Origin: Diadema setosum
Lineage: Eukaryota; Echinodermata; Echinoidea; Diadematoida; Diadematidae
Length of the DNA stretch: 64,000 nucleotides
Direction of reading: 5' to 3'
Assembly (NCBI RefSeq): GCF_964275005.1
Contig: NC_092690.1
Location: 4,938,836-5,002,835 of the forward strand
Shown here piece after piece: positions 4,501 through 47,559 of this stretch (position 1 is its first letter; each line of letters starts with the position of its first letter). The notes below the pieces were generated by a model. The model did no database searches, was not told the DNA's origin, and saw only the letters and a program-made list of their open reading frames with translations. The position numbers and the translations under genes are program-made.

Positions 4501-5709
4501 TTTTAGAATGAAAGGTTGTGGTGTTCGTGCACTCATTCAGAAAAGTCAATTCACAGTCTGTATAGATCCCTTAGATTAGCATCAGTTTTTAATGGTTGGT
4601 GTTCAATCATCATGTCCAAGCGTCAATGTTTTTTGTATTGTAGAGAAAAAAAAGTGCCAATGAAGCACATATGTTTGATGATGAGTATACAGCATGTAAG
4701 GGATTTAGTGTTCATTGCACATGGATCCAGATATGACTTGTGTAAGTGTAGGTATAGGGTCAGGAAACAGTAACGTACACACAGTCCATCCAGAGATAGT
4801 GTAGTGTGGTTGTGTCGGTGTTGGAGTACACAGCCATGTACAATGTAGGACATAAAAGTGAGGACACACTCCCAGTGTGGTTGGATATTGACAGTGAGTG
4901 AGGTGTAATACACAGAAGGATTATCTGGCGGTATGGAGGTCTTCTAATTCCTGTATGATTCTCGCTGAAAATTTTCCAAGTTTCTCGGTGTGTGGCAGCA
5001 GAATTGAACAGTCTCCCTGATTTTAGAATGATTTTTTTTACTGAAGTGCAAGTAGCAAATAAGTATCTCCATGTTTATTCTGTGGAACCTCTTCGGTTTT
5101 GATGTGGAAATGTTGGCAGCCCTGGGCTAAAGCGTATTTGTTGAAGAGAGATGATGTAAGTGAACGCTGTTGAGGAGAGTTGGGGTTTTGAAAACTCCTT
5201 GATGTCTTGTCTTGTCTTGTCCACCTACCAGACACGTCCTTGTCACCCCAACCCATCTCTACATCCTGCGGGAGGCGCCCAACAAGCGCGGCTTCTCGTA
5301 CATCATGGCGCGCCGCTCGCTCGCCGACGTCGTCCGGATCACGTCGAAGAAGCGCTGCTCGGAGTTCATCACCTTCCGCTACGGGCGCGTCAACAGCGCC
5401 GGCGAGACCACCGTCTACGGTGTCGACCGCATCTACATCCCTGACGCGGCGGAGGCCACGAAGATGATCAAACAGCTCATCGTCAAGTGCATCGATGAAA
5501 AGGAGCCGGAGAAGGAATCTTCAAAGGAGACGGGCAACGCTGACCAAACAGAGAGTGCCAAGGACACCAGGACAGATAGTAAGACTGATAGTGCGACGGA
5601 GAACACGGACAAGGGAACGGGGGAGGAGTCGTCGAACGGCACAGCGGACAAGGGAGAGAACGAAGGAATGAAGGATGACCAAACAGAGGAGGTGCAAGCG
5701 GAGAGCTAA
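1437..5709 (+). CDS. TBC1D23: TBC1D23, C-terminal part (five exons, 5' end outside window)
   Basis: Spliced model: 1437-1546, 2992-3131, 3565-3653, 4273-4408, 5232-5709, joined in phase with GT-AG introns. TBC1D23 is a catalytically inactive TBC-domain adaptor that links endosome-derived vesicles, captured by golgin-97 and golgin-245, to the trans-Golgi. Its C-terminal PH-like domain is known to bind the WASH subunit FAM21. The visible part is the linker with the family signature AAVMGRLTTMFKSK, the HVSSMDTGKRYR / VFSIGDE segment, the WLKKPEVLKAF block, and the PH-like domain (HVLVTPTHLYILRE, then ITSKKRCSEFITFRYG). The N-terminal TBC and rhodanese domains lie to the left. An acidic, low-complexity tail of about 75 residues follows the PH-like domain; vertebrate proteins end close to that point. 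Identity is firm; the first visible exon is the least certain part because it lies in a variable linker. Confidence 0.92.
2992..3131 (+). CDS. TBC1D23: TBC1D23 exon with AAVMGRLTTMF motif
   Basis: A very strong pyrimidine tract ending CCCATTCTAG precedes 2992; the donor is GAGAA|GTGAGT. The frame reads IGDSPQKLTERGAAVMG then RLTTMFKSKSASVKDK, matching the conserved linker before the C-terminal domain. A second AG 18 bp downstream (exon start 3010) keeps the frame and would drop six residues, so tandem-acceptor use is possible. Confidence 0.9.
3286..3503. repeat. Near-perfect foldback element in a TBC1D23 intron
   Basis: Two arms of roughly 100 bp are inverted copies: the left starts GATAAAGAGTTCTCTAAACA and the right ends TGTTTAGAGAACTCTTTATC. 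The inner part, with GGCAACTGATGATT, also pairs, leaving a loop of only a few bases. This is a MITE-type hairpin about 218 bp long. Confidence 0.88.
3565..3653 (+). CDS. TBC1D23: TBC1D23 exon with HVSSMDTGKRYR motif
   Basis: Acceptor CTTGTTTCTTGCAG and donor AATG|GTGAGA. The first base completes an AAG codon; the frame then reads HVSSMDTGKRYRSNNVQ and VFSIGDEDDDN, the counterpart of the vertebrate HVSSSDR...VFSIGDE segment. The last base starts a GAG codon completed by the next exon. Confidence 0.92.
3925..4015 (+). repeat. Degenerate tRNA-derived SINE-like segment
   Basis: The segment carries an A-box-like TAGTAGATAAG and, about 45 bp later, GTAGGTTCAAATACTGC, a good match to the internal RNA polymerase III B box. 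An anticodon-arm-like CTGTCTTGAGATCAG lies between them. A T-run (3888-3913) precedes it. No intact acceptor stem closes, so this is not a functional tRNA. I read it as a SINE head or old tRNA pseudogene within the intron. Confidence 0.45.
4273..4408 (+). CDS. TBC1D23: TBC1D23 exon entering the C-terminal domain
   Basis: Acceptor TTGTTCTACCAG, donor CCCAGG|GTGGGT, 136 bp. The frame reads ESLGGAGSSDEERRELVST, then DTWLKKPEVLKAFDCQEVKD, then SGQTFPG. The serine/acidic stretch is a possible casein-kinase-type phosphorylation region (inference); the W-KP-V block matches the start of the C-terminal domain in other animals. Confidence 0.92.
5232..5709 (+). CDS. TBC1D23: TBC1D23 terminal exon: PH-like domain and acidic tail
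   Basis: Acceptor TTGTCCACCTACCAG; the first base completes GGA. The exon encodes the rest of the PH-like domain (HVLVTPTHLYILREAPNKRG, then ITSKKRCSEFITFRYG, then IPDAAEATKMIKQLIVKCI). A tail of about 75 residues rich in Glu, Lys, Ser, Thr and Asp follows, then TAA at 5707-5709. The domain part is very GC-rich; the tail is purine-rich and drifts towards repeats of T-D-S-K / T-E-N-T-D-K type. Confidence 0.95.
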
Positions 5710-17357: not shown

Positions 17358-19332
17358 TCAATGGAGGTGTGTGAACATTGTCTTAAGGAGCATCTCAACA
17401 GATGAATTGTCATCGTCTACTTGCTCTGTCACTTTCACTGCTTTGCTTGAACAAGGTGTGTCCGACTTGGCTTTTCGCTTGTGACAGTTCACAGTGCCAG
17501 AAGAGGTAGCCGCTATTGCATCAGGCATCTCTGTTGATTCCTCCTGTTGTGACACTGCGGGAATTGTGCTTTGAGTCTGAGTTGTGGTATCCATGGACTC
17601 TTGACCGTCGGGGGGCTCCCGCTCTCTGCCAAGAGAGAAATAAGCATCGATTCCCTTGGAGGGCTCATCCTCAACCCCTTCCTTGATTGTCACTTCCTTG
17701 TCTGCTTCCCAGAATGCAACCAGTTCCTTGAGCTGGTCAAGTCTGGTGTAGAACTTCCGATGGTTTGTCTCACTCAGGGCGGTAGCAAGCTCTTTGGCAA
17801 CTGCGAGGGCAGCGTTCTCCTTCTCTTCCTTGCTCATATCAGCATCAGTTGGTGCATTGCTGCCATTCTCCTCCACCGCCTTGTCCAACTGGTAGTTTTG
17901 CTTCCAGCGGTCTGGAACCATGCTTTTCCCATACAGTGGCATGTTAAGATGATCCCTGGAGCAGAATATGTGCCTGCAAGGTAATCCCATGGAGGAAGAG
18001 AAATGGCATGAACAGCTCTCTGTCCCATCACTGCCACCTGACACCATGTAGGATGCTCCATCCTCTACTACAGTTGCAACTATGTCCCTCTCCCTGCTGG
18101 CCTGTGATGTACGAAGCTGGGGCGCACTGATCACCTTGCATTCGCATGAACGACAGAGCTCCTTCAGCATTTTCTCTGCGGCGTACGATGTGCATTCTGT
18201 GAGGATTGCCTTTGCAACTTCGGGATGTTTGCTCTCTTGAACAAGCCTGGAGGCAGTACCGGTTGGTGCTCTTTGCTGCGATGCATCTTTGAGGAGTTGA
18301 CCATGCAAGGATATCAGTCCCTTGAAACATTCTGTGATAGTGGTGCTTGGGGTAATCACAGTTTTTAATGACTGGTACAATCCTTCCAGTCGTTTCACAG
18401 TTCTGTTTCCAAAGTGCTGCGATCCACCATAGAAGGCTGGAACCCACATACATCTGCAGACATGCCACTGACCGTTGAAGTAGCTCTTGAAGTCGACTGT
18501 AGCATGCCTCTCCAGCTCCTCATGAAGTTCTTCATACTCGCCTTTACTTTTTGTGTACACCATCTCCTGGAGGATCTTTCTCACACTGTCAATGCTTGAG
18601 GTTGGCAAGGCCTGTGTTGCCTTCTTGAAGGTCTGCAGCACTTGAGACATGCATAAGTGGACCTTGGCCTGAGGGAATATCTTCTTCACTGCGGTTACCT
18701 CTGCAAAGTTGGCATTTACAAGGAAGAGCCCGGCACTTTGAAGGGTGTCTCCTCCACTCTCCTTCAGGAGTCTGAAGACATGTCTGAGGGTTTCCTCTTT
18801 TTGATCCGCAACCAGAACATGGGCACACGGAATGCTCTTCCCGTTGCCATCGACCACAAAGAAGGTGTACAGCGGCATCTTATTCTGGTTCACATTGCAT
18901 GTGACGTCGCACATGATGACCTCTGGAAATTTGTGGAGAGATCTGAGCATCTGGACCGTCTGCAGATACAGCACTGAAACCTCACTGTCGGCCCCCAACA
19001 CCAAATTTATAGTGCTGGTTGGGTCGTCGTTGATGATCTTGTTGATGGCATCCAGTATGGGTCCCCTGTGGTCACTGGAAAGTGAGGACTTTAAGCTGTG
19101 GACATCATGCTGGATTACTTTTCCTGGTGTCTGGTGATTGGGGGCTGCAAAGCCACAGCTCTCTGACTTCTGGTTTTCTTTGCCATTGTCCTCTCTGTTC
19201 TTGGGATGAGACGTGAAGTCCTCACAAGTGATGTCACGGTGATGATAAAAGCAACCATGCATTATCACAAGTTTGTCCTTGCATCTATCCACACTGGCTC
19301 TGACATTCATGGGGCACCTGTTACTTCTCGTG
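17358..19332 (-). CDS. Exon 5: FAR1 C-terminal half, MULE transposase core and SWIM zinc finger
   Basis: Acceptor CTTTTGGTTTCAG|CACGAG. 657 codons then stop at 17358. The start (STRSNRCPMNVRASVDRCKD, then LVIMHGCFYHHRDI) completes the FAR1-like domain. The MULE core shows VIMCDVTCNVNQNKMPLYTF (Asp, model residue 759), GLFLVNANFAEVTAVKKIFP (Asn 823 where the second catalytic Asp is expected), the C/H segment KVHLCMSQVLQTFK, and NRTVKRLEGLYQSLK (Glu 933). The SWIM motif is CSCHFSSSMGLPCRHIF. The C-terminal 200 residues are charged and probably disordered, with a basic CHKRKAKS stretch that may act as a nuclear signal. ZSWIM1/3-like identity is firm for this exon. Confidence 0.92.
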
Positions 19333-22300
19333 CTGAAACCAAAAGTGACACACCACATTACCCTTTTAATAGACAAAATTTAAACTAATGGTTTTGCACA
19401 CTTAACTAGCAACTTTCCTTTGAATTTAGTCAACAACTGTAATCTCTGTTACAAAACAGTTGATCAATTAATCATGGCATTGCTGGCCTCATGGAAAGTG
19501 ACAAGTCTTTGATCTCTCTTTGTTCTTTGTTCTTTTTCTCTTTATTTTGTTCTAATGATTTCAGGCAAGTTATTATAGTGTATCTTATTTTGCAAAACAA
19601 GATCCTTGATGAATGATTCAGTCCACTTTAAAATGTTTGTCCTACATTGTCCAAAATGATCCAGAGCAAAGTACCAACTGTATGACACAACCTACGTATG
19701 CAAGATATCATTTCCTTTCATCTTCACTCAATCCAGGCATCACATAAATTCCATCACTGAGTTTTCCTAACCCATATTTTTTTTCTTAGTACAACATCTG
19801 ATGGAATCTTAATTTCAGCATGAAAGACGTTTTTCATACACCCCATTTTCATATCAAAGACTTACATGTAACCCGTCAAAAAGACTAGTCCCGAGTATAA
19901 CTTAAGCAGGTGTCTCAGGGAAATGCATGTTAAAGGAAAATCAGCTTATCTGTAATTGGTTGACATACTGTAATATAATTTGCCCTTCCCAGCCAAACTT
20001 GGTGCAGGACTAACCTTTGAATGGAGCCCTCTTTAGTGGGGCATCCCTTGGAAGACCTGTGTTGCTTGCACCTAAGCTGGATGTAGCTGTACTTGAATTT
20101 CTCTGCAACGGGCACAGAGTTCTCCTGCAGGAGCTTATTAGCTGACTCCACAGTTCTGCAGTTGTCCGTGGACAGCTTACATAACTCTTGGCTTTCATAG
20201 AGCTCAACAGCAGCCCGAAAATCTTCATAGTCATTGAATTCTTGACCAGTGTGGAGTATTCTGTCGGAAGAAAGAAAGATACTCGAGTACTCAAATCTTC
20301 ATATTTAAAAGACCACATTCTCGATATATATCTCAGATACATCCAGATATAATAGTCTATTTCATACCTTCTTGAAGAGACACGTTAATTGTTCTTGTGA
20401 TGTCTTCAAAAAAATATATTCACCCTAAATTGCTTTCCAACTTTTAGTACTTTTTTCCAATATTGTGACATCACAAATTGGTGTAGAGTTCCCTTAAATA
20501 GAAAAGGTGGCACATGGAATTATCCAAACTTTTTAAACTGATAACCTTTAAACATTGTGACAGATTTTCATCAAACTTTCACCAAGCATCTCACTATAAG
20601 AACTCTCCTGCATTCATTGAATTAGAAAACAAAAAACTACCCTGGCCTCTGTGAAAATAATTCAAAAATATCACAGCTAAACTGCACTAGTATTGAGTAG
20701 GATTGGCATACAGAATGGTATTTTTTTTAACAAGAATTCAAAAGAAAACAAGAAAGTAGTAATTGGGACTTTTACTAGTAGTGGGTTCATAAGAAAGTCA
20801 AATCAGTCACCACTCCACAGTGAATGAAAATAACAGTCTGAGATGATGAAATAAAAAAAATCAAAAGTGAACGCACTTACAGGACATTGCTTCCTATCAT
20901 AAGTATACACATGATAAACAGCAGTGCATCTACACTAACAGTAACAGTAACTCACAAAACATAGCAGGGCTCGACACTAACTTCTATTTTTGGTGGCCCA
21001 CTGGGACTACTTCAATCTTTGAATTACAAATTTTAATGGAACAAAATAAAATCAAACATAACAATTAATTTGGAAACATAGTTGCCCAATCCAGCCACAA
21101 AAAGACAACCTCTTTGGAAGTTTGGTGGCTCACCATCAATTACTAGTAAAGTGGACTCCTGTTATAAAGAAGTCCTCGGGACCGGCAGTTTTCTTTCGTT
21201 ATATAATGGGAATTTTGTTATAACCGAACAAATATACAATAAAAAACATAGAGCCGATAACGTTGCGGCCTTGAATTTTATTTCGTAGTAACCTGAATTT
21301 CTTTATAACCATGTTCATATACTTGTAGTGGGCAAGGGGAGTGCACTTTAGCCCCAGGCCACTGGGCCTCCGCTTATGTTGCGCCCTGTTCATAGAGTGT
21401 ACATGTAGTTTCATCCTCATCATTCACCCCACTTACTGTTGCGGTACCTCCCCGACTGGAGACTTTGTCTGCCCCAGGACTGCGGCTGTCGTTCCCTGTA
21501 GCTCGTCACCACTGGCTGGAGGCAAACTCGTCTCATCACCTCCAGGCTGGGGGAGAGTGCCATCCATAGATGAGAGTCTGTTCTCCCTGGTATCACCGGC
21601 GGTGTCATCCTTGCTGTCTTCACTACCTGGTAAGACTTCAAAAAAAGGATGCCACAAGAGTCTTGCTTTATTTATGTGCAGTGGTGCTGGTGACTGAGGG
21701 TACGAAGGTATAGAACAAGTGTTAACTTCCTCAAGAAAGTTGGAGCAAGATTTGGTCATTCTGAGATCAAGAAACTTAATCCGTGGAGGACAAGTTTTGA
21801 GTATATTCAGGCAGGTGTCTATGGGAAATGCGTGTTGTAGCAAAATCAGCCCGTCTTCGACGGGTTTAAATAAATACAGAATAAATATACAAGGTCTCAT
21901 AGAAACAGCTGTAGGTATCACCATCTTGTTTATATCCGATTCCAGCCAATTAGTGCTACAGCCAGGTGACTCTCTTTATAATGAAGCCATCACCACCACC
22001 AATAATCGTTCGTCATATATCGAAGTTTCATCCTGAAGAGAATTTTGCAGTGCAAACTTTTAATAACACACATGTTTGATAATAATTTCTGGATCCAAAT
22101 TTTTATTCAACTGGAATGAAATATTGTTACAACCATACATTGTAGCAGGAGCATCCTATACTTGGTACATTTTACTACATGCTCTACAAATGGTTAATTC
22201 CATGCAATATATAATAAGTACTACAAGTAAATCATGATCATTGTCTTCAACTGGAAATCTTTTGATCATAGCATTTCTTTCAGCAGGCAACACTCAATTT

Positions 22301-25300
22301 CATCTTTAAAATAGTTTTATTTTTAGCATGTAATTCTTTTTTTTTTCACACGGTCCCGAAGTGTTTGCTTGATCAAATTTGTTTGTTCATTATATCTCAT
22401 TCACTGTGTCAAAACCCACTGACTTTTAGCGCATTATAATCCGTACTGCAAATTAAACTCTGCTCATTTTGGTTTTTTTTTTTTCCGGCATTGGTCGTTT
22501 CATGTGATGTGAATAACCACATGATATAGTATGCACTTATGCACTGTGAAAACCTTGTGAGATATTGCACACTAAACAACATGCAAAGCTTGAGAAACGG
22601 TACGGTACCATCACTGATCACTATAATGAAAAAGTTTTTTCTTTTTTTTTTTCTTTTTTTAGCTAAATGCATCAAACACAAAATTTCATTCCAGTAACAA
22701 TACAGTCTGCATATTCAAAAAAAAAAAAATATATATATATATATCAATCAATCAAAGGCAAAAAAAAAAAAAAAAAAGAGTTAAGGAATTATTCAATTAA
22801 TACCGGTACCTTGCGGAATTTCATCTTCCGAGTCTTCCATTTTCACTGAATAAAGCTGCACGTCATCTTGTCCGTCAAGAAAATCTGCACGACCGCTGCT
22901 CTCCTCTGCTCCATCAAACTCCTGTTTGATTCCCGATGCATCCAGGACAGGACCAGATGCTTCCTGTGAAAATCCACATCAAAGGGTGGCATTCATACTT
23001 CTCTCTAGTAAAGGATGTCTGTGACAGCTATGTGAATTATCTCCCTATGGATTTCTTACAGTACAAATGTATGTGGGTAATTCCATGAAGTTGGGGCAGT
23101 GTCCATGTAGCATCGTGATATTTGAAAAATACATTTCAGCATAACTCAATGTTGATTATGCTATACATTTATTGTTTGTAAGCTTTACATTTGCATTGAG
23201 GCCACACATTTTCCTGGAAATTTTGTGCCATTCAGACTCAATTTTGATGAAGTTATTAAACAATATGTAACGGTGTCCTGTAGCATCGTGACGTGTCCAT
23301 GTAGCATCGTGAAATTTTAACATTTGGTCCTAAGAGACAAATTATGGCAATTAGCTTGACCAAAATTTGATGCAATATGCATATTTACTAGATTAGTCAG
23401 ATAGCTAAATATCTCAAATTTCCTGTACACAGTTTTAATTTTAAAAGAAAATTACAAAATGTATCACGATGCTACGCGGTGTCCTTTTTTGTTACATTTG
23501 GTGGACACCGTGTAGCATAGTGACACATTGTGTAATTTTCTTGTAAAAGTAAAACTGTGGAAAACAGAGTTAAGATATTCAGCTATCTGACTACTCTAGT
23601 AATTATGCATATAATATCAAATTTTGGTCAAGCTAATTGCATTAATTTGTCTTCTAGGACCAGATTTTCACTATCACGATGCTACATGGACACGTCACGA
23701 TGCTACAGGACACCGTTACATTTTTTAAAAATAACTTCATCAAAATTGAGTCTGAATGGCACAAAATTTCCAGGAAAATGTATGGTCTCAATACAAATGT
23801 AAAGCCTATAAAGAATATATGTATAGCATAATTAGTATTGAGTTATGCTAAAATGTAACACTTTGTGCCCCAACTTCACGGAATTACCCATGTAAGACAT
23901 TGAGGACGAGTCCCGAGTATACATGGGTAGGTGTCTATGGGAAATGCGTTTTGTAGCAAAATCAGTCCGTCCTCAATGGGTTAACTACATGAACAAAAAA
24001 AAAACAAAAAAAAAGTTACAGATATCCAGGTGAAATCATTTACACGTATTATTTTTATGGACAAATGTCATCATTTACTTGGCAAATTAGAAATAATTTT
24101 AAAATTGGATGGAAATGGACATTAAGAAAACTGTGGTGGAATTCGTTTGAATCATTATGTAAACTACACGATTTACAAGTACAAATGTAAACAATACTTT
24201 TAATACATAATTGTTGTGTTGTGCAAGTTAATTCAAACGAATCTCATGGGATGAGAACTGTTTAATTATGGAAAAACAAAAGTTTCAAACATTATGCATT
24301 TGTACCGGTAGTTTCAGTACCATACTTTGTTGCTGCATTTTGTTGTTTTTTCCTTCTTCTTTTTTTTTTATATGAGCTGCCAAATATTGCAAAATAGTAC
24401 ATTGTAGGGCCTAGTGCTGTCACTGTTCATTACCCTCATCCTTTCAGTTTCAGTCTTTAAAGGACAAGTTCACCTTCATTAACATAAGGATTGGGGGAAT
24501 GTAGCAATATTAGTAGAACACATCATTGAAAGTTTGAGGAAAATCGGACAATCCGTTCAAAAGTTATGAATTTTTGAAGTTTTTGTGCAGTCACCGCTGG
24601 ATGAGAAGACTACTGCAGTGTATGATGTCACATGCATACAACAATATAAGGAAAATATAAAGAGAATTTCACAAAATTTCATCTTTTGAAAAAAGTACAC
24701 ATTCCCTTGACTCGTTACTGACATATATGTTATGGGTAATATCATTCCCATTGCCTTTAGAAAGAGGCAAGTCAAGTGCTCTTTTATTATGCAAACAAAG
24801 TGAAAATATGTTGAATTTTCTTTACATTTTCTTTATACTGTTGTACTCATATGACATCACGAGCCTTAGTAGTCTCCTCATCCAGTGGTTACAACACAAA
24901 AGTTTTAAAAATTCATAACTTTTGCATCGATTGTCCAATTTTCCTCAAACTTTCACTGATGTGTGCTACTAATATTGCTGCATTCTCTCAATCCTTATGT
25001 TAATGAAGGTGAACTTGTCCTTTAAGTTAAAACTGATTTCTTCTGGATTGATTACTACAATGTCACCAGGTTTGTACAATGTATTCATGATCACAGTTTG
25101 TGTGGTTTAGAAGTGGTATTGCAGAGAATGAACACACATTTCCTTTACTGAAACAATGACATTAAATGCTGCATTTTGTCAAGAATGTGTAGGCCATTTA
25201 CCATCTTTAAAAAAATAAAAAGCAAGAGTCAAGAGAAAAACTTGAAAAAAAAAATACATAGTTTCAGGTAGTCTATTCTAGCCGCCTCCCCCCCCCCCCC

Positions 25301-27166
25301 CCATTCCTTCTTTAAATTCATTCCCTGAATTATGTTGGTGATGGTGGTGGTGGTTGTTGTTGTTGTTGTTGATGTTGCTGCTGCTGCTGCTTCTGTTGTT
25401 CTTTGACTTTCTTTTCACACACACACACACACATCAACCATGCGCCGATTTAGGCATTATATCATAGGCCTTCTGTATGCATCACTGTAATTAACTATAC
25501 ACAGCCCTGTCGCTGTACACAACGGGTATGCCGTGCTTTGCACAGCGTCTGGTCAGGCTACATTGAAATCTAGATTTCTACCCATCTTTAATAATATCTA
25601 TTCTATGCCATGAACCAAGATGTGAATGAAGAGGTGTGCACCCTACTTGTTGTCAGCCTTTTATAAATATTGTTTTATACTAGGCTCTAGAACGTCTAGA
25701 TCCATTTGCTTTTTATTTCCATCTGTTTCTGCAGGCTCTCTATATCGTTTTTTCTTCATTAAAAGCAACTGAGAACCCACAAGTTCAATATTGATCTGTT
25801 TCAGTTCTATGTACGTGTACATGTAAATATACTACACAAAGCTTCAGAGGGTTTTTAGTCTGGTGACTCAAAAAGGGATCCAGAACACCGAATACTTTTT
25901 GCTCACCTGTTGATGTTGTGATGTTGCTGCTGATGTTGAACACAGCAAAGTGTCAACTGTCACCACGGGTGCACTCACACTTGGTGCATTTCTGATGCAA
26001 CTGGTAGGCCTATTATTGGTCTGTTCCAGAGCTGAGATCAACAGGCTCATTTGCCGCTTTTGTTCTTCAGCGACCCCAGAACTCCGCGGGAGAGACTTGG
26101 GCCGACGATGGCAGGCCGACGAAGTCATGGCGTACCTCCGCCCATCGAAGTCAGCGGCATTCAGTGAAGCGACGCTGGTCGCTCGCAGACAGTGGTTCGT
26201 GTATTTGTGCGAACATTTTGCCTCAGTTGAGATTCTGACCATCATCATTCCCAGGTTGTTCTTGCCAAGAGGAACACCCTCATACCAGTGAACAAGGTCG
26301 GGGTGAAAGGTTGTCTTTGGCCGCTGCCAGAAGTACAGGCACGCAGGATCAAGACGCGACAGGTAAGTGCAGAAAGACTTCACGGGGCAGCCACCGACTG
26401 CATACTCGTTCTCGTACATCCTGGTCATCCTAGCACTTGAGCTTTGCACTGCAGCAAGTTCACTAACCTCACCACCATCATCACGATCATGTTCATATTT
26501 CCCTTTTTTACACTTTTTGAAATATATGTACCGTCGACTTGATGAGTCAACAGCGAGATGGAAGTCACTCTTTTTCATTTCGCGTAAATTGTCTCGCCCA
26601 CAATCGCAGAAATTATAGAGCAAAACATCGATAAAGACTTTATTCTGAAGGCCCCTGGGAGTGGAAACGTCCAGAGCAGACGACTTCCGAATTTTGATCA
26701 TGTCCTCTTTATGTATCGGGTCCTTGCGTCTCATTAATCCTTTGCCTTCGGCCCTTAGCCTTCGCATCACAGCCCGGTGCATGTCGTTGGCTGGTTGAAA
26801 ACGTTTATCATTTGCGATGTTGATTGATTTCACATTTTGAAAATGGCGCGTCAAACCATATCGGAGCGAGATCATGCTACTCACGGCATAAGCATCCCCG
26901 TTCGCCCGCCGAGCTTCCGCGTAGAAACGACGCAGGAATTCGCACAGTTCGGCTGGGTCCTTCTGCTCTATCTCGGCCAACGTAGTGTCTCTTTCCTTCG
27001 CGTAGAGCGCGAGAATGTTGACCGAATGCTTGATGAGATCCTGGGTGTTTTTCGAATGTTTTCCTCTATAACTAACATTTCTGGAAAGCTCATCGTCGGA
27101 CAAAGATGGAAATCGAGGGCCTTTCTTGGCCATCGAGAAAGCCGTGCTTCTAGACGACGAGGCCAT
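17358..27166 (-). CDS. Chimeric gene: Crypton-like recombinase domain plus FAR1/MULE/SWIM transposase domain
   Basis: Spliced minus-strand model: 27166-25907, 22963-22810, 21626-21437, 20260-20015, 19332-17358; 1274 residues. All four junctions use GT-AG and keep frame (phases 0, 1, 2, 2). Residues 1-380 resemble the DUF3504 / Crypton tyrosine recombinase domain of ZMYM2, QRICH1 and KCTD1 relatives. Residues 420-535 are an acidic linker. Residues 540-660 are FAR1-like with Cys/His zinc ligands. Residues 720-950 are a MULE transposase fold as in ZSWIM1/3, and CSC...CRH (1057-1071) is a SWIM finger. Both catalytic centres look damaged: no tyrosine after the ACHRR segment (residues 351-355), and Asn at 823 where MULE enzymes have Asp. 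A domesticated DNA-binding protein is inferred. If the 2.9-kb first intron is wrong, this would be two adjacent genes. Confidence 0.62.
19869..19965. mobile_element. Small TTAA-type hairpin MITE, family C copy 1
   Basis: A diverged copy of the roughly 91-bp family: TAACCCGTCAAAAAGACTAG, CCCGAGTATAAC, AGGTGTCTCAGGGAAATGCA, CAAT/AATTGGTTGAC end. It is aligned to the clean copy at 56148-56238. Confidence 0.65.
20015..20260 (-). CDS. Exon 4: FAR1-like N-terminal half
   Basis: Acceptor TCTTTCTTCCGACAG and donor TTCAAAG|GTTAGT. It reads ILHTGQEFNDYEDFRAAVEL, then YESQELCKLSTDNCRT, then KFKYSYIQLRCKQHRSSKGC. This matches the F-x-s-x-e-e-F / Y-x-C-x-H pattern that opens the FAR1-like zinc domain of ZSWIM1/ZSWIM3-type proteins. 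The last two bases (AG) join C of exon 5 to give Ser. Confidence 0.85.
20270..21148. other. Intron 3 of the chimeric gene (with flank)
   Basis: AT-rich intronic sequence between exons 4 and 3. No coding sequence beyond the exons is seen; the MITE at 21149 occupies its distal part. Confidence 0.5.
21149..21349. mobile_element. TA-type MITE, family F copy 2
   Basis: It matches 11741-11926 along its length: AGTGGACTCCTGTTATAAAG, GGCAGTTTTCTTTCGTTATA, AACCGAACAAATA, GTTGCGGCCT, GGGGAGTGCACTT. A 20-bp insertion lies near its right end. It is intronic in the chimeric gene. Confidence 0.78.
21437..21626 (-). CDS. Exon 3: Ser/Asp/Pro-rich linker
   Basis: Acceptor GTCTTACCAG and donor CAACA|GTAAGT. 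The first two bases complete a Gly codon begun in exon 2; 62 codons follow (SEDSKDDTAGDTREN, LPQPGGDETSLPPASGDE, GEVPQ) plus two bases of a Gln codon finished by exon 4. Low-complexity, probably disordered linker. Reading through the donor meets TAA almost at once, which supports splicing. Confidence 0.75.
21776..21869. mobile_element. Small TTAA-type MITE, family C copy 2
   Basis: Bounded by TTAA at 21776-21779 and 21866-21869. It carries the family centre AGGTGTCTATGGGAAATGCG and TTGTAGCAAAATCAGCCCGT, ending CGACGGG. Confidence 0.75.
21880..22809. other. Intron 2 of the chimeric gene
   Basis: Non-coding, AT-rich, with T-runs near 22341, 22475 and 22638 and an (AT)n run at 22730-22744. No exon seen. 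Confidence 0.5.
22810..22963 (-). CDS. Exon 2: acidic linker
   Basis: Acceptor TTTTCACAG|GAAG and donor CCGCAAG|GTACCG bound 154 bp with no stop in the used frame: 51 codons plus one base. The peptide contains GIKQEFDGAEES, a match to the SUMO-acceptor pattern (hydrophobic-K-x-E), and KMEDSEDEIPQ. It contains no early Met, so it needs an upstream exon; its phase-0 start fits the phase-0 end of the 25907-27166 exon. Confidence 0.75.
23075..23889. mobile_element. 815-bp foldback element with ~400-bp arms
   Basis: The left half (from GGGTAATTCCATGAAGTTGG) and right half (to CCAACTTCACGGAATTACCC) are inverted copies over almost the whole length. The element is flanked by ATGT on both sides (23071-23074, 23890-23893), a candidate 4-bp target duplication. 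The unit TGTCC(A)TGTAGCATCGTGA recurs in both arms. It sits in the first intron of the chimeric gene and could form a very long RNA hairpin when transcribed. Confidence 0.88.
23893..23984. mobile_element. Small TTAA-type MITE, family C copy 3
   Basis: ATTGAGGACGAGTCCCGAGT at the left, TGTCTATGGGAAATGCG in the centre, CCGTCCTCAATGGGTTAA at the right. The right TTAA is intact (23981-23984); the left reads GTAA. It abuts the 815-bp foldback directly. Confidence 0.78.
24456..25026. mobile_element. MITE family A, copy 1 (570-bp foldback)
   Basis: It begins TTTAAAGGACAAGTTCACCT and ends AGGTGAACTTGTCCTTTAA; the arms of about 270 bp are inverted copies (TAACATAAGGATTG, AGAACACATCA, TTTGAGGAAAAT, CTGGATGAG in each). 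Related copies lie at 31376, 41791, about 52990 and 61885. Confidence 0.88.
25030..25906. other. Distal part of the first intron of the chimeric gene
   Basis: Non-coding. It holds a C-run at 25288-25301, a GTT/GCT trinucleotide stretch at about 25337-25400 and a short (CA)n at 25416-25432. If exon 1 is unspliced, this region would contain the alternative 3' end. Confidence 0.45.
25907..27166 (-). CDS. Exon 1: Crypton/DUF3504-type tyrosine recombinase-like domain
   Basis: Start ATG at 27166 has a good context (ACAATGG). 420 codons run to a consensus donor CAACAG|GTGAGC at 25907; without splicing the frame continues only 12 more codons to a stop at 25868. Visible recombinase landmarks are CDCGRDNLREMKKSDF (first Arg, residue 191 or 195), a basic patch FKKCKKGKY, PVKSFCTYLSRL, WYEGVPLGKNNLGMMM, KYTNHCLRAT (H-x-x-R, residues 325-328) and VAEEQKRQMS. 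The second His is at 353, but the position of the catalytic Tyr reads SLPRSSG, so strand cleavage is unlikely. Residues 20-130 form the helical core-binding-like region (FYAEARRANGDAYAVSSM). Confidence 0.85.
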
Positions 27167-37976: not shown

Positions 37977-39488
37977 TTATATCTTGGCGTACATGGGCTC
38001 GTAGCCCAACCGATCCATAACATCCAAACATGCGGCTTCCACCTGCCAAATTTCGAGGCTACGCAGTTCTGACATCCAGCGTTTTGCCGTAGCTTTGGAA
38101 TTCTTTTGGACGTCAAACGTCCCAGTGTTGATCTTGCCCACCTGTGTGTGTTTGTATACCCATGATTTCACTTTATCAGGGAGGGGCATCCCAACAAATT
38201 TGTACAGGTCCTCAGTCACCTTCAACGGCGCTTCGGCGAAGTCCTCGTACTTCAACAGGAAATAACGACCCCGTAGCCAGTCGGGAAGATGCGACGAGTC
38301 TTGGAGGTTCTCGCGCACCCATGAACACATTCGGGTGATGCTATCTTTTGGCTTCTGCGTCGTGTTCAGGAGGCCTAGTGGAGCCAGGCGGCCGTACATT
38401 GCGAATTCATGCCAGTGCTTTTTCACCGCGCGCCGACACAAGGTGAAGTAGTAACGAATACGCGAAGCGGCGGAACCGCGCGGATCGCGAACCAGGTGAA
38501 TGACCTTGACATTAAGTTTCTCCTCGACAATGAGCGGCCGGATGTTTTCGAGATCGGCCCTGATCACCTTAATCGCGACGCGGCCTTTGAACATCGAGCA
38601 CAGCTTCCCCAACCATTCCGGACTCGGTAACTGGCACCGCAAGCCTGGCCTCAGGCTGCATATGACATCGTTGTTGAAGATTCCAGTCCAGGTGTTGGTG
38701 ACGTCAACGTATTCGGATGTGAAGTTACATGTGGCGATGCTGTGCAAGATATTGTCCGAATATCTCCGACGCTCTGAGGAGAAAAAGTCGAGAGGAAGCT
38801 TGCCAATGTTACGCAGATGATCAACTATCCATAGTGGTTCGTACATGTAAAAGAACTCAGGATTCTGATTGAAGATTTGTCCGACGATGCTGGAACCGAA
38901 TCGCCATTGGCCGAGAACTATGACAAAGGGAGGGTTAGATGTTTTATAATTTAAAGGTCGTGTAAGTTCTTTGAACGCTTCCTTGATATCATGATTGAAC
39001 CGTTTACCATATCCTGCTGCTGGTTTTCTAGCAGGCCCATAACGATGTTTAAAACTTTTCCAGGCATTATTTCTTTCCTGAATCTCCTCGTCCTGACTGG
39101 ATGACGTCACATAATCAGTGTCATTAATCTTTGTAAGGAACGCCCAAACGTCTCGTCCTGACGAACTCGTCTCTTTGCTTTCATGGGTGACATCATTGTC
39201 CATTTGTGTCGTGCCGTCAGTGACTCCCTCGTTATCGGTGTCGTAGAGACTTGGAGCGTCAACGAATGCCGCATCGAGTGACGTCTTGCTGTGTCTGTGA
39301 GCTACGAACAGTACTGTTAAAAGGACGCACACGAGGCACGCGTGCAGAATTCTCCTCATTACCTTCAAGCGTCCACATGGAACTATCACTCCTCTCATGG
39401 TTTTAAGTTGCTTCCAGATCATGTTGGGCATTTTACTGTTCAGGATGAGCACATGTTCAGGGCTGACAAACCTTTTCGTCGTCATCAT
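37977..39488 (-). CDS. Carbohydrate sulfotransferase (CHST1/CHST3-like), Golgi type II membrane protein
   Basis: Intronless, 503 codons if the first ATG is used. It transfers sulfate from PAPS to a sugar hydroxyl, by family most likely the 6-O position of Gal or GalNAc/GlcNAc in a glycan, in the Golgi lumen. The PAPS 5'-phosphosulfate loop is VLGQWRFGSSIVGQIF (about residues 191-206) and the 3'-phosphate loop is VKVIHLVRDPRGSAASRI (about 327-344). MYEPLW, WVRENL and LLKYEDFAEAPLKV are further family blocks. A single hydrophobic anchor, LHACLVCVLLTVLFVAH (about 48-64), follows basic residues. The usual short cytosolic tail suggests that Met31 or Met44 could be the true start. Potential N-glycosylation sites are NDT, NFT and NTT. 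The stem (65-180) is acidic and Ser/Thr-rich. The acceptor sugar cannot be read from sequence. Confidence 0.92.
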   Translation of the reverse strand: MMTTKRFVSPEHVLILNSKMPNMIWKQLKTMRGVIVPCGRLKVMRRILHACLVCVLLTVLFVAHRHSKTSLDAAFVDAPSLYDTDNEGVTDGTTQMDNDVTHESKETSSSGRDVWAFLTKINDTDYVTSSSQDEEIQERNNAWKSFKHRYGPARKPAAGYGKRFNHDIKEAFKELTRPLNYKTSNPPFVIVLGQWRFGSSIVGQIFNQNPEFFYMYEPLWIVDHLRNIGKLPLDFFSSERRRYSDNILHSIATCNFTSEYVDVTNTWTGIFNNDVICSLRPGLRCQLPSPEWLGKLCSMFKGRVAIKVIRADLENIRPLIVEEKLNVKVIHLVRDPRGSAASRIRYYFTLCRRAVKKHWHEFAMYGRLAPLGLLNTTQKPKDSITRMCSWVRENLQDSSHLPDWLRGRYFLLKYEDFAEAPLKVTEDLYKFVGMPLPDKVKSWVYKHTQVGKINTGTFDVQKNSKATAKRWMSELRSLEIWQVEAACLDVMDRLGYEPMYAKI

Positions 39489-39577
39489 CGCTCAAGTTCT
39501 ATCGCGTACAAATTGATCACGTTTCACGCTGCTTGATTACTTGTTGAAGATCCAGCCAAACAATAAGCACAGCCAAA

Positions 39578-44096: not shown

Positions 44097-44849
44097 CTAT
44101 GAAAGTTTCAACTGCTCCCATTTTTGCAAATGAAAACCGAGCTTACCTGCTTTAACCGCAACGTTCTTTTCCTCCTCTATAAAATCCAGAACAAATTTCT
44201 TTATCTTTTCCCTCTTGGGTAACTTATTTTGTTCTCTTGACCGAAATATTACAATTTTCATCAAAATTATCAAGGCATTCACGCATTTGATTCGATTTGA
44301 ACTACCTCGTAAACCTAAAAAAATATCTCTCCATTCTAATTCTTCTAACTCAACTAAATCATAAAACTCAATAAGAAACTGCCATATCGGCTTTACTTTC
44401 ACACAATCAAAAAATATATGTGAATAAGTTTCCCTTTCCAATTGACAAAAAGAACAAAGATTATCATTCACAAAACCAAACTTAAACAAATGTTCCCTTG
44501 TATATATCACCCCGTGTAACAACTTAAACTGAAATTCCCTATGTTTACTAAGTAAAGTCGTGCTTCTAGGTCTAAGAAATAAATTTCTAATTTCCTTATC
44601 ACTGCAATCATACTTCACTTCACCATATCTTATTTCCAGAGTATACAATTCTTGTAAAGCTGTAACAAAATACTCATACACTATTTTTGATTTAATATTT
44701 TGAAATTCTAATATCTTACCAAAAATCTTCACCTGTATATCATAATTTAATACATCAATTTGCTGAAACCTTACACTCCCTGTGGACTCTTTCCACTTTT
44801 CTGGAAGAACATTATAAATATCATTTATCTTAAATATACCATTTCCCAT
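44097..44849 (-). pseudogene. LINE ORF2, part 3: C-terminal Cys/His motif
   Basis: Third frame of the broken ORF2. It contains LSKHREFQFKLLHGVIYTRE and the zinc-knuckle-like CSFCQLERETYSHIFFDC (C-x2-C...H...C), the usual end of L1/Tx1-type ORF2. The stop is at 44097; the 3' UTR follows. Confidence 0.85.
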
Positions 44850-44854
44850 AATAC

Positions 44855-45475
44855 CTAAATTCGAAAATACCCAACGGGTTTAATAAAACCTCCTTGTAAA
44901 ATATGATGTACATTATAAACACCTTTTTCATATAAATCACAATCAAAAATACTCTTCCCTTTTATACATACTTTTCTATTATTAAATATAACTGGATTCA
45001 TCACTTCATCTTCAAAATTCCTACATTTATCCATTTCCTGCCATACCTTAACCATTTCTAAATAAAAAGGTGGAACTGGATTTGTCAATGTCAATCTAGA
45101 CCATTCATAGTCACATAAAAATAAGAACCTTCCTCCTACTGATCGAAAACTAAAATCAAAATACATTTTCCACCCAGATTTCTTCTCACCATACAATAAA
45201 CGTTTCAGCCACATAATACGTTGCGTTTTGACAAACAACTTAAAATTTATCATTCGCAGTCCCCCATTAACATAATCTTGATACATAATATTCCTTTTTA
45301 CCCGGTCTTTACCATTCCACAAAAATTCAAAAATCATCTTATCCAATTCAGGAAATATCCATTGAGGAACAACTATGAGTGATGAAACATAATTTAACCT
45401 TGATAATGCATAAGTTTTCAACAAATGAATTTTTCCCATGAGTGTTAAATCACGCTGTTTCCACCATCCTAACAA
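44855..45475 (-). pseudogene. LINE ORF2, part 2 (post-RT region), shifted frame
   Basis: It continues the protein after a frameshift: MLGWWKQRDLTLMGKIHLLK, then LSRLNYVSSLIVVPQWIFPE, the typical region after the polymerase in L1/Tx1-like LINEs. It ends at a second frameshift close to 44850. Confidence 0.85.
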
Positions 45476-47495
45476 CTTTTTTTATTCTACTCAATATTTC
45501 TTTAAAATTGATCTCATTCATCCCCCTCACATCTCTTACAAAATTCACCCCCAAAATTTTAACTGCATCAACATATTTTCCAGATACAGATAATACAGGT
45601 TTCTCTGTATCCTTACCCATCCACAAAAAATTAAATTTTTCTTTATTTACAATTAAACCGCTTATTTTCCCGAATTCATCAAAAATATACTGTAACCTAT
45701 TTAAAGATTTTATGTCCTTTATAAACAACGAAATATCATCCGCATATAAAATTTGCTTTATTTCATTTCCCCCAAAACATATTCCTTTTACAGTGTTATC
45801 TTTCCTTACTACTTGTGCCAGTGTTTCAATTACTAATAAAAACAAATACGGAGACAGGGGATCACCTTGCCTAACCCCTCTCTTGATTTTGAAATAACCA
45901 GTAGAGTGCCCTCCATTCATAACACAACTGCTAATATCCTTATAAAGCACCTTAACCCAGGAACAAAACGATTCACCGAAACCAAACCTATGTAAGACCC
46001 GAAATAAAAATTCATGTGCAACTGAATCAAACGCTTTTTCGAAATCCACTGTGACCAAAAACCCACTTGTATAGTGCAAAGAATGAAATAACATATCATC
46101 TACTAATCTTACCGCTTCTCCTATATTCCTATTCTTTATGTACCCAACTTGATCAAAATGAATAATCTCTCCCAAAACTTCTTTAATTCTATTTGATAAG
46201 ACCTTAGATAATATCTTATAATCTACATTCAAAAGTGTAATTGGTCTATAATTTTTGATGTATAGTACATCCCTATTTTCTTTTTCTAATAAAGTAATAA
46301 CACCTTGCTTTTCTGATATTGATAAAGCCCCTTCATCATATGCCTCATTCAGAGCATCTACCATCATTTGCCCCAGAACCGACCAGAAAGTGAGATAAAA
46401 CTCCACTGTGAAACCATCGTTTCCAGGAGCTTTATTACCTTTCATTTCTTTTAAAACCATAAAACATTCATTTATATTAACTTTCCCTTCACAACTTTCT
46501 CTACTCTCTTCACTTAATTTCGGAATATCATCAAAAAATACACAATTTATATCATAGATATATTCATCATTATTAGAATACAACTTTTCATAAAATAACC
46601 TAATTACTTTCATTATTCCATTTACATCCTTTATCAACTGTTCTTTATTATCATATATTTCCTTAATAACACTTTTCTTTTTATTAGATTTCAACAATTG
46701 TTCAAAATACTGTGTTTTTGTTTCTCCTTCTTCAAACCATTCAGCCCTAGACCGAACTCTCAAACCTTGTCGAGAATACTCATATATTTTTCGTAACTCC
46801 GATTTCTTCTCCTCTATATCATCTACTACCGCATTGCTGGATGAAACTAATATCTGGTTCTCTAATTCCTCAATATTTCTTTCTAACTCCTCTATTCTAC
46901 TTCTTCTCAATTTTGCTTTATCTTTAGAATAACTTATAATATATCCCCTCATTTTCATTTTCATAAAATCCCATAACAATCGTTTACCCTGAATACTCAA
47001 ACTCAATTCTTCCCTTAATCTAATTATTTCATTACTAAATTTTTCAACAAATTCTCTATCCATACATAAACTGTTATTAAATTTCCAGTATGACTTACCA
47101 TAACAAAATATATCTACCAACTGTTCAACCTGTAACAAAACACCAGAGTGATCAGGCGTTATTGACGTTATTATTTCACACTTTTTCACAGAGTGTTGTA
47201 AACTAGAAGAACAAAACCAGTAATCTAAACGGCTTTGAATAACAGGCCATTTTTGTCTAAACGTAAATTGTTGTTTATTCAGATTTCTCTTTCTCCATAT
47301 ATCTATCAAATTATATTTATTCAAAAAATCTTCAAATTTTTCATTAAAAACAGTTTTCAACACCTTCCTTGGTCCCATATAATCTAAACTTCCATTCATT
47401 ATCAAATTAAAATCCCCTCCTATAAAAAACAATTGATTAGGATTATACAACCTAGATACACTAATATCTAATTTCTGCAAAAACTCCACTTGCAT
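45450..47495 (-). pseudogene. LINE ORF2, part 1: endonuclease 3' half and reverse transcriptase
   Basis: 681 codons from an internal Met; the frame continues upstream (PTRDKER) to the truncation point. The endonuclease part shows FFIGGDFNLIM, SRLDYWFCSSS and TPDHSGVLL. The reverse transcriptase part shows KAPGNDGFTVEFYLTFW, NYRPITLLNVDYKILSKVLS, GFLVTVDFEKAFDSVAHEFL, KIKRGVRQGDPLSPYLFLLV and QILYADDISLFI. It ends at a frameshift near 45450-45475. The product would make and insert LINE cDNA; here it is a decayed copy. Confidence 0.9.
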
Positions 47496-47517
47496 TCTCT
47501 CTTTATCTCTTGTAGGG

Positions 47518-47559
47518 AACTTGCTTCAGAACCTTGTAGATGTAGATGCCGTAGCTCTC
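47518..47559 (-). pseudogene. 42-bp fragment of histone H2B coding sequence
   Basis: The minus strand translates without interruption to ESYGIYIYKVLKQV, the conserved H2B alpha-1 segment (about residues 35-48 in standard numbering). The fragment lies exactly between the 5' truncation of the LINE and the (CA)n array, in the same orientation as the LINE but not in its reading frame. It is a junction fragment, not a gene. Confidence 0.88.

Follow-up and report, generated by a model that had tools for sequence, protein, structure and literature searches.

A Diadema gene model that joins Crypton- and MULE-derived transposase domains, probably a host gene

Introduction

To our knowledge, the transposase-derived fusion genes described so far each combine a single transposase with a domain of host origin. 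Coregulators of the QRICH1/Zincore type bind zinc-finger factors on DNA together with SEPHS1, and within the Zincore complex QRICH1 reportedly contacts DNA or a DNA-bound partner. We know of no MULE domain in ZMYM2/3/4, QRICH1 or WOC, and of no recombinase domain in ZSWIM1/ZSWIM3 or the DUF5575 proteins. According to Kojima and Jurka (PMC3212892), KCTD1 isoform b arose from a Crypton that inserted upstream of a gene and holds the Crypton domain in a single exon, vertebrate DUF3504 proteins have lost the Tyr and the second Arg, and WOC is widespread among bilaterians. SETMAR, CSB-PGBD3 and KRABINER are described in PMC12062965 as a transposase fused to other coding sequence. FHY3/FAR1 appear as MULE-derived plant regulators in PMC10027918 and PMC13306707; the former also reports MULE-derived FHY3 in animals, and its main text contains 0 occurrences of 'Crypton' or 'urchin'.

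Here, we describe a locus of Diadema setosum on the minus strand of a 64-kb window at C6:4938836-5002835 (the whole stretch of DNA analysed, in which all coordinates are given). The locus resembles KCTD1 isoform b, as described in PMC3212892, in that a Crypton tyrosine recombinase (YR) occupies one exon, seems to have inserted upstream and has lost catalytic residues. The two differ in that the partner in KCTD1 is a BTB/POZ gene and not a second transposase, and in that the KCTD1 insertion belongs to vertebrates and took place before about 527 MYA. Exons 4 and 5 match the same Pfam models as ZSWIM1/ZSWIM3 and DUF5575 proteins and, like FHY3/FAR1, are MULE-derived; FHY3/FAR1, in contrast, have no Crypton part. 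Whereas SETMAR, CSB-PGBD3 and KRABINER each combine one transposase with a host domain, two unrelated transposase classes meet here, and the Crypton–MULE fusion has so far been found only in Diadema, unlike WOC with its wide bilaterian distribution. The sequence supports a host–transposase fusion that appears unusual in joining two transposase classes. Titles and abstract openings in the open-licence literature, a scope with subscription journals mostly outside it, described no Crypton–MULE or DUF3504–ZSWIM fusion.

A five-exon gene model

The earlier note had proposed five minus-strand exons with matching phases, and this proposal stands: the exons join into one frame, with junction phases 0, 1, 2 and 2, of 1275 codons in which the sole stop is the last codon. 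The remaining 1274 codons run without stop or frame break, and 4/4 introns are GT-AG. The NCBI predicted protein P0002 (D. setosum) matches the joined frame with 100% identity over 99% of its length, so the five-exon chain also stands as a public gene model. Chance chaining of open reading frames was ruled out, as predicted proteins in two species match. The features are as follows.

25907..27166, minus strand: exon 1, Crypton tyrosine-recombinase-derived domain (Pfam, P0002 match, AlphaFold, fold matches)
26228..26611, minus strand: Pfam DUF3504 match in exon 1, protein residues 186-313
26183..26194, minus strand: HxxR box; both residues intact in D. setosum, with Gln in place of Arg in D. 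antillarum
26081..26083, minus strand: catalytic Tyr position, Ser in both Diadema fusion proteins
25868..25906, minus strand: Crypton frame beyond the exon 1 donor, 12 codons and stop, spliced out if the donor is used
22810..22963, minus strand: exon 2, acidic linker with phase-0 acceptor
22919..22930, minus strand: IKQE, a psi-K-x-E motif common to both Diadema species
22835..22846, minus strand: VKME, second psi-K-x-E motif, common to both species; its Met is the earliest potential start of a shorter ZSWIM-only protein
21437..21635 (acceptor of the NCBI model) or 21437..21626 (acceptor of the earlier note), minus strand: exon 3, linker
20015..20260, minus strand: exon 4, ZSWIM3_N (FAR1-type) region, which runs on into exon 5 (Pfam)
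17358..19332, minus strand: exon 5, MULE/ZSWIM1-3 RNase H-like and helical domains, SWIM finger, C-terminal tail and stop
18906..18908, minus strand: first Asp of the MULE active site, unchanged (read from an alignment with L032-L034, MULE frames elsewhere in this genome)
18714..18716, minus strand: second Asp of the MULE active site, replaced by Asn in D. setosum and D. antillarum (alignment to L032-L034)
17970..18014, minus strand: CxCx9CxH ligands of the SWIM finger, present in D. setosum and D. antillarum alike

P0002 departs from the exon boundaries first listed at the exon 3 acceptor. It has three residues (VLP) beyond that first chain, which moves the acceptor 9 nt earlier, to 21635. 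Since the D. antillarum protein P0003 carries VIS at the VLP position, 21635 is likelier than 21626. The first ATG of exon 1 (420 codons) lies at 27166, and P0003 starts at the equivalent of this Met; P0002 begins at the second Met, 27133.

The donor of exon 1, CAACAG/GTGAGC, had been described as a consensus site. It ranked first among the 563 GT sites of the minus strand between 17.4 and 27.2 kb, and the donors of exons 2, 3 and 4 ranked 54 (weak), 10 and 6, all with a scoring matrix built from site frequencies. In agreement with the earlier description of an acidic exon with no early Met, in-frame stops directly precede exon 2, whose first Met is codon 42; therefore, the part before this Met needs a phase-0 coding exon upstream.

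These features bear on whether gene prediction has merged two neighbours, a separately domesticated Crypton gene of one exon that stops at 25868 and, next to it, a ZSWIM-type gene with a first exon of its own. Such a merger would accommodate the stop of the Crypton frame at 25868 and the AATAAA that follows 151 nt later, at 25717 inside intron 1, as well as a Met in exon 2 that could start a ZSWIM-only protein. Other Crypton frames in the genome, moreover, are mostly one uninterrupted frame. We nevertheless consider a merger unlikely, because the best of the 563 donors sits on exon 1 in the phase that exon 2 needs, the D. antillarum model uses the identical exon 1–exon 2 junction, and exon 2, with its upstream stops, aligns between the species without a gap.

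The Crypton stop and the AATAAA make a Crypton-only transcript possible. One locus might then yield two products, the fusion and a shorter ZSWIM-only (or Crypton-only) isoform, for which KCTD1 isoforms b and a offer a precedent and to which the intronic poly(A) signal and the codon 42 Met would lend themselves. Against this, protein searches returned solely fusion models for the locus. A two-product locus is compatible with a host fusion gene and shares part of its probability; we regard it as a tentative possibility.

The psi-K-x-E motifs of exon 2 (IKQE and VKME) are presumably of the SUMO type, making both putative modification sites. Inverted-repeat (foldback) elements occupy much of intron 1 (23130-25025). 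A tblastn stretch that joined the tail of exon 1 to the intron before exon 2 was rejected, the alignment revealing a chance extension across stops, and an Rfam scan of the whole 64-kb window gave 0 matches.

The Crypton-derived exon

Profile, tree and fold all identify exon 1 as a Crypton tyrosine recombinase. Its Pfam DUF3504 score is 31.1 bits (cut-off 29.7); on the whole proteins the score is just below this cut-off (P0002, 28.5; P0003, 29.5). A profile search restricted by length, with long fusions outside its reach, gave 51 relatives, and 51/53 alignment members match DUF3504. In the tree, exon 1 is sister to P0004 (support 96/90), with a stem branch of 0.72 compared with 0.18 for P0004. 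The AlphaFold model of exon 1 has a pLDDT of 81.5, and its top fold matches are QRICH1 and Cre; because Cre and other recombinases share the fold, it is not specific for QRICH1/Zincore-like proteins. A PDB sequence search with the Crypton profile found no match at E 0.01, and a scan of viral contigs confirmed no relative.

Catalytic residues of this recombinase have changed. Besides the substituted Tyr, the second conserved Arg (that of the HxxR box) and the box Lys are present in D. setosum, whereas in D. antillarum the Arg is Gln and the Lys is changed. At the Tyr column, the 51 database relatives have Tyr in 35, another residue in 8 (one Ser) and a gap in 8. In the best 19 other genome copies (L010-L028, from at least 105 matches), Tyr is kept in 16/19; this count excludes L026, which shows Tyr in a stretch where it is frame-shifted (17 becoming 16), and L014 and L028 break before the column. 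Among the near-invariant columns of the Crypton family, 58/64 are kept in D. setosum and 57/64 in D. antillarum.

A protein search of the assembly (912.7 Mb) with exon 1 gave at least 105 matches, 100 of 262 candidates being scored. There was one 100% match, and the next-best full-length match was 45% identical among the matches listed. The closest partial matches among those listed lie on C13 (59% identity across 136 residues) and C18 (61% across 64). An active Crypton element would have R-K-H-R-H-Y and further copies, as L010-L013 and L015 do; exon 1, in contrast, has Y changed to S and no close second copy.

We compared exon 1 and the two partial matches with P0004, the C13 and C18 remnants pairwise and outside the tree. 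Over 363 residues, exon 1 shares 51.8% identity with P0004, with 0 stops and in one frame. The C13 remnant (60.9%) has 7 stops and 2 frames, and the C18 remnant (74.7%) 1 stop and 3 frames. Of eleven further copies at 40-48% identity to P0004 (L017-L027), 10/11 are likewise without stop or frame break, L026 being the broken one, so the argument from the intact frame of exon 1 rests on the C13 and C18 remnants. Some of the divergence of exon 1 may be older than its capture.

Other Cryptons of this genome look young. Six copies of a ~2.1-kb Crypton (L010-L015, on C11, C12, C3, C10, C18 and C11) share 93-100% DNA identity, which indicates that Cryptons were mobile recently in this genome, and the full catalytic set R-R-K-H-R-H-Y is readable in 5/6 of them (L010-L013 and L015). 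The pairs L020/L021 and L022/L023 share 96.8% and 99.7% DNA identity, with catalytic residues in place.

The MULE/ZSWIM-type exons

The last exons are of the ZSWIM1/3 type. Exon 4 matches Pfam ZSWIM3_N with 39.2 bits, and exon 5 matches ZSWIM1-3_RNaseH-like with 87.4 and MULE with 44.9; the two also match the DUF5575 model. The modules found are thus ZSWIM3_N, the RNase H-like domain, a helical domain with a model score below cut-off, and a SWIM finger whose ligands are present and whose score of 17.2 bits is below the cut-off of 19.6 (14.2 on P0002; absent from the match list of P0003). The earlier identification of exon 1 as Crypton/DUF3504-like and of exons 4 and 5 as a FAR1-MULE-SWIM protein of ZSWIM1/3 type is therefore borne out, with the SWIM match sub-threshold.

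The MULE active site was read from alignments to partners that are only ~22-26% identical (L032 ~22%), so that the residue calls depend on short conserved motifs. Compared with L032, exon 5 keeps the Glu and has Gln in place of the CxxH His, in both species; with Asn at the second Asp, it lacks the intact D-D-E and CxxH of an active MULE transposase. Taken together, Tyr to Ser in one half and the second DDE Asp to Asn in the other mean that neither transposase should still catalyse, and judging from these substitutions both active sites look dead.

The exon 5 protein found no match besides itself in the D. setosum genome (4 candidates scored), where a family search located 27 places with a MULE domain. 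AlphaFold with a three-sequence alignment gave exon 5 a pLDDT of 31.4, and a PDB sequence search with P0002 returned four chance-level rows (best E 0.18).

These results also bear on a new composite transposon that would encode a MULE transposase alongside a Crypton recombinase. Both halves do derive from transposases, and intact-looking copies of both parent kinds exist in the genome. However, protein searches gave no second copy among the candidates scored, the gene has four introns and both active sites are changed. On these three grounds we rejected this reading, which we consider highly improbable.

Among the MULE copies themselves, L032 (C6:11365449) has an 857-aa frame with a MULE transposase and, at its C terminus, a PHD finger that scores 24.1 bits against a cut-off of 24. 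It scores equally with C16:23256157 and C18:17451416 and, going by the scores alone, the three are perhaps a young MULE family. L033 (C5:20931402) is a single 1203-aa frame in which MULE is the only Pfam match; its N-terminal start has, by eye, finger-like CxxC...HxxxH motifs.

Conservation in a second species

The earlier note had suggested searching the proteomes of related species for proteins with both domains. This search yielded one predicted fusion protein, P0003 of D. antillarum, which has DUF3504 (just under the cut-off) and MULE/ZSWIM1-3 domains in one chain; the QRICH1 model also appeared in its scan, below cut-off. The whole-protein search (7,989 candidates scored) returned only P0002 and P0003, and the search with the ZSWIM half (7,990 candidates) found only the two Diadema proteins under settings that required 5-residue words in common and proteins of 471-1499 aa, which limits its reach beyond Diadema. 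The sequence is conserved between two species of one genus, and not as a repeat copy.

The exon 1–exon 2 and exon 2–exon 3 junctions fall at the same residues in both species. Identity over aligned residues is 328/401 for exon 1, 40/51 for exon 2 (all 51 residues aligned gap-free), 53/67 for exon 3 and 551/623 for exon 5. The P0003 model is without exon 4 and the beginning of exon 5, and ZSWIM3_N is consequently absent there, which may reflect a real loss, alternative splicing or an error in the model. The two Diadema gene models may not be independent, as either could have been used in predicting the other.

Exon 1 (82%) is less conserved between the congeners than exon 5 (88%). Differences in exon 1 avoid the most conserved Crypton columns: by conservation quarter they number 6/85 in the most conserved, then 17, 20 and 21 of 85 (6/85 versus 58/255 elsewhere; Mann-Whitney, p 0.0019), for the 340/401 aligned columns with enough family coverage. 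The lower identity of exon 1 and its long stem branch fit relaxed constraint as well as a new function. Together with the catalytic changes and the absence of exon 4 from P0003, they could be taken as signs of a fusion that formerly coded and now drifts with no present function. Such decay seems improbable to us, since the 1274 codons are unbroken while two Crypton remnants nearer to P0004 are broken, the conserved core columns are spared, and exon 5 and the SWIM ligands are maintained.

Proposed origin and function

We propose that the locus is probably a Diadema host gene in which a Crypton was captured upstream of a MULE-derived gene, likely encoding a DNA- or chromatin-binding regulator. 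The earlier note had likewise taken this two-transposase gene model for a host gene, and the hallmarks expected of one are present: no close second copy, dead-looking sites, a maintained frame and a second species. We infer that the gene is transcribed as one mRNA and that its product acts in the nucleus; binding to DNA or chromatin is probable by analogy with the DUF3504 relatives KCTD1, ZMYM and QRICH1.

A Crypton element would have landed in front of a MULE-derived gene of ZSWIM1/3 type or within its 5' region, the MULE capture perhaps being the earlier. With a strong donor lying 12 codons short of the Crypton stop, the recombinase frame would have become the initial coding exon, spliced in phase 0 onto the acidic linker and from there to the FAR1-MULE-SWIM body. 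This route has a precedent in KCTD1 isoform b and fits here by analogy. The core of the recombinase fold and the SWIM ligands are retained even though neither half should still catalyse its reaction. In the resulting protein, the YR-fold half may contact DNA or a DNA-bound partner, much as QRICH1 reportedly does within Zincore; a second contact would come from the FAR1 and SWIM fingers, and the acidic linker, possibly SUMO-modified, might recruit cofactors.

The protein, with its two dead transposases of different chemistry (tyrosine recombinase and DDE), might instead guard the genome against mobile relatives of both, the Crypton domain still binding Crypton ends or poisoning multimers of live recombinase and the MULE/SWIM half anchoring chromatin repression. 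The genome does hold young, catalytically intact Crypton families; even so, we give this role little credence. If the host-gene reading is correct, two disarmed transposases kept in frame in two species would mean that transposases, once domesticated, are able to recombine with one another. As intact Crypton families and decayed remnants occur in the same genome, the locus offers a testable case of recombinase capture and disarming.

Neighbouring sequences

Elsewhere in the window, a LINE with pieces of reverse transcriptase and zf-RVT lies at 44100-47525 (minus strand), and GC skew is strong at 42-48 kb. A sulfotransferase open reading frame of 504 aa occupies 37980-39491 (minus strand), and an exon-like open reading frame at 5203-5706 (plus strand) matches the end of the TBC1D23 C-terminal domain.
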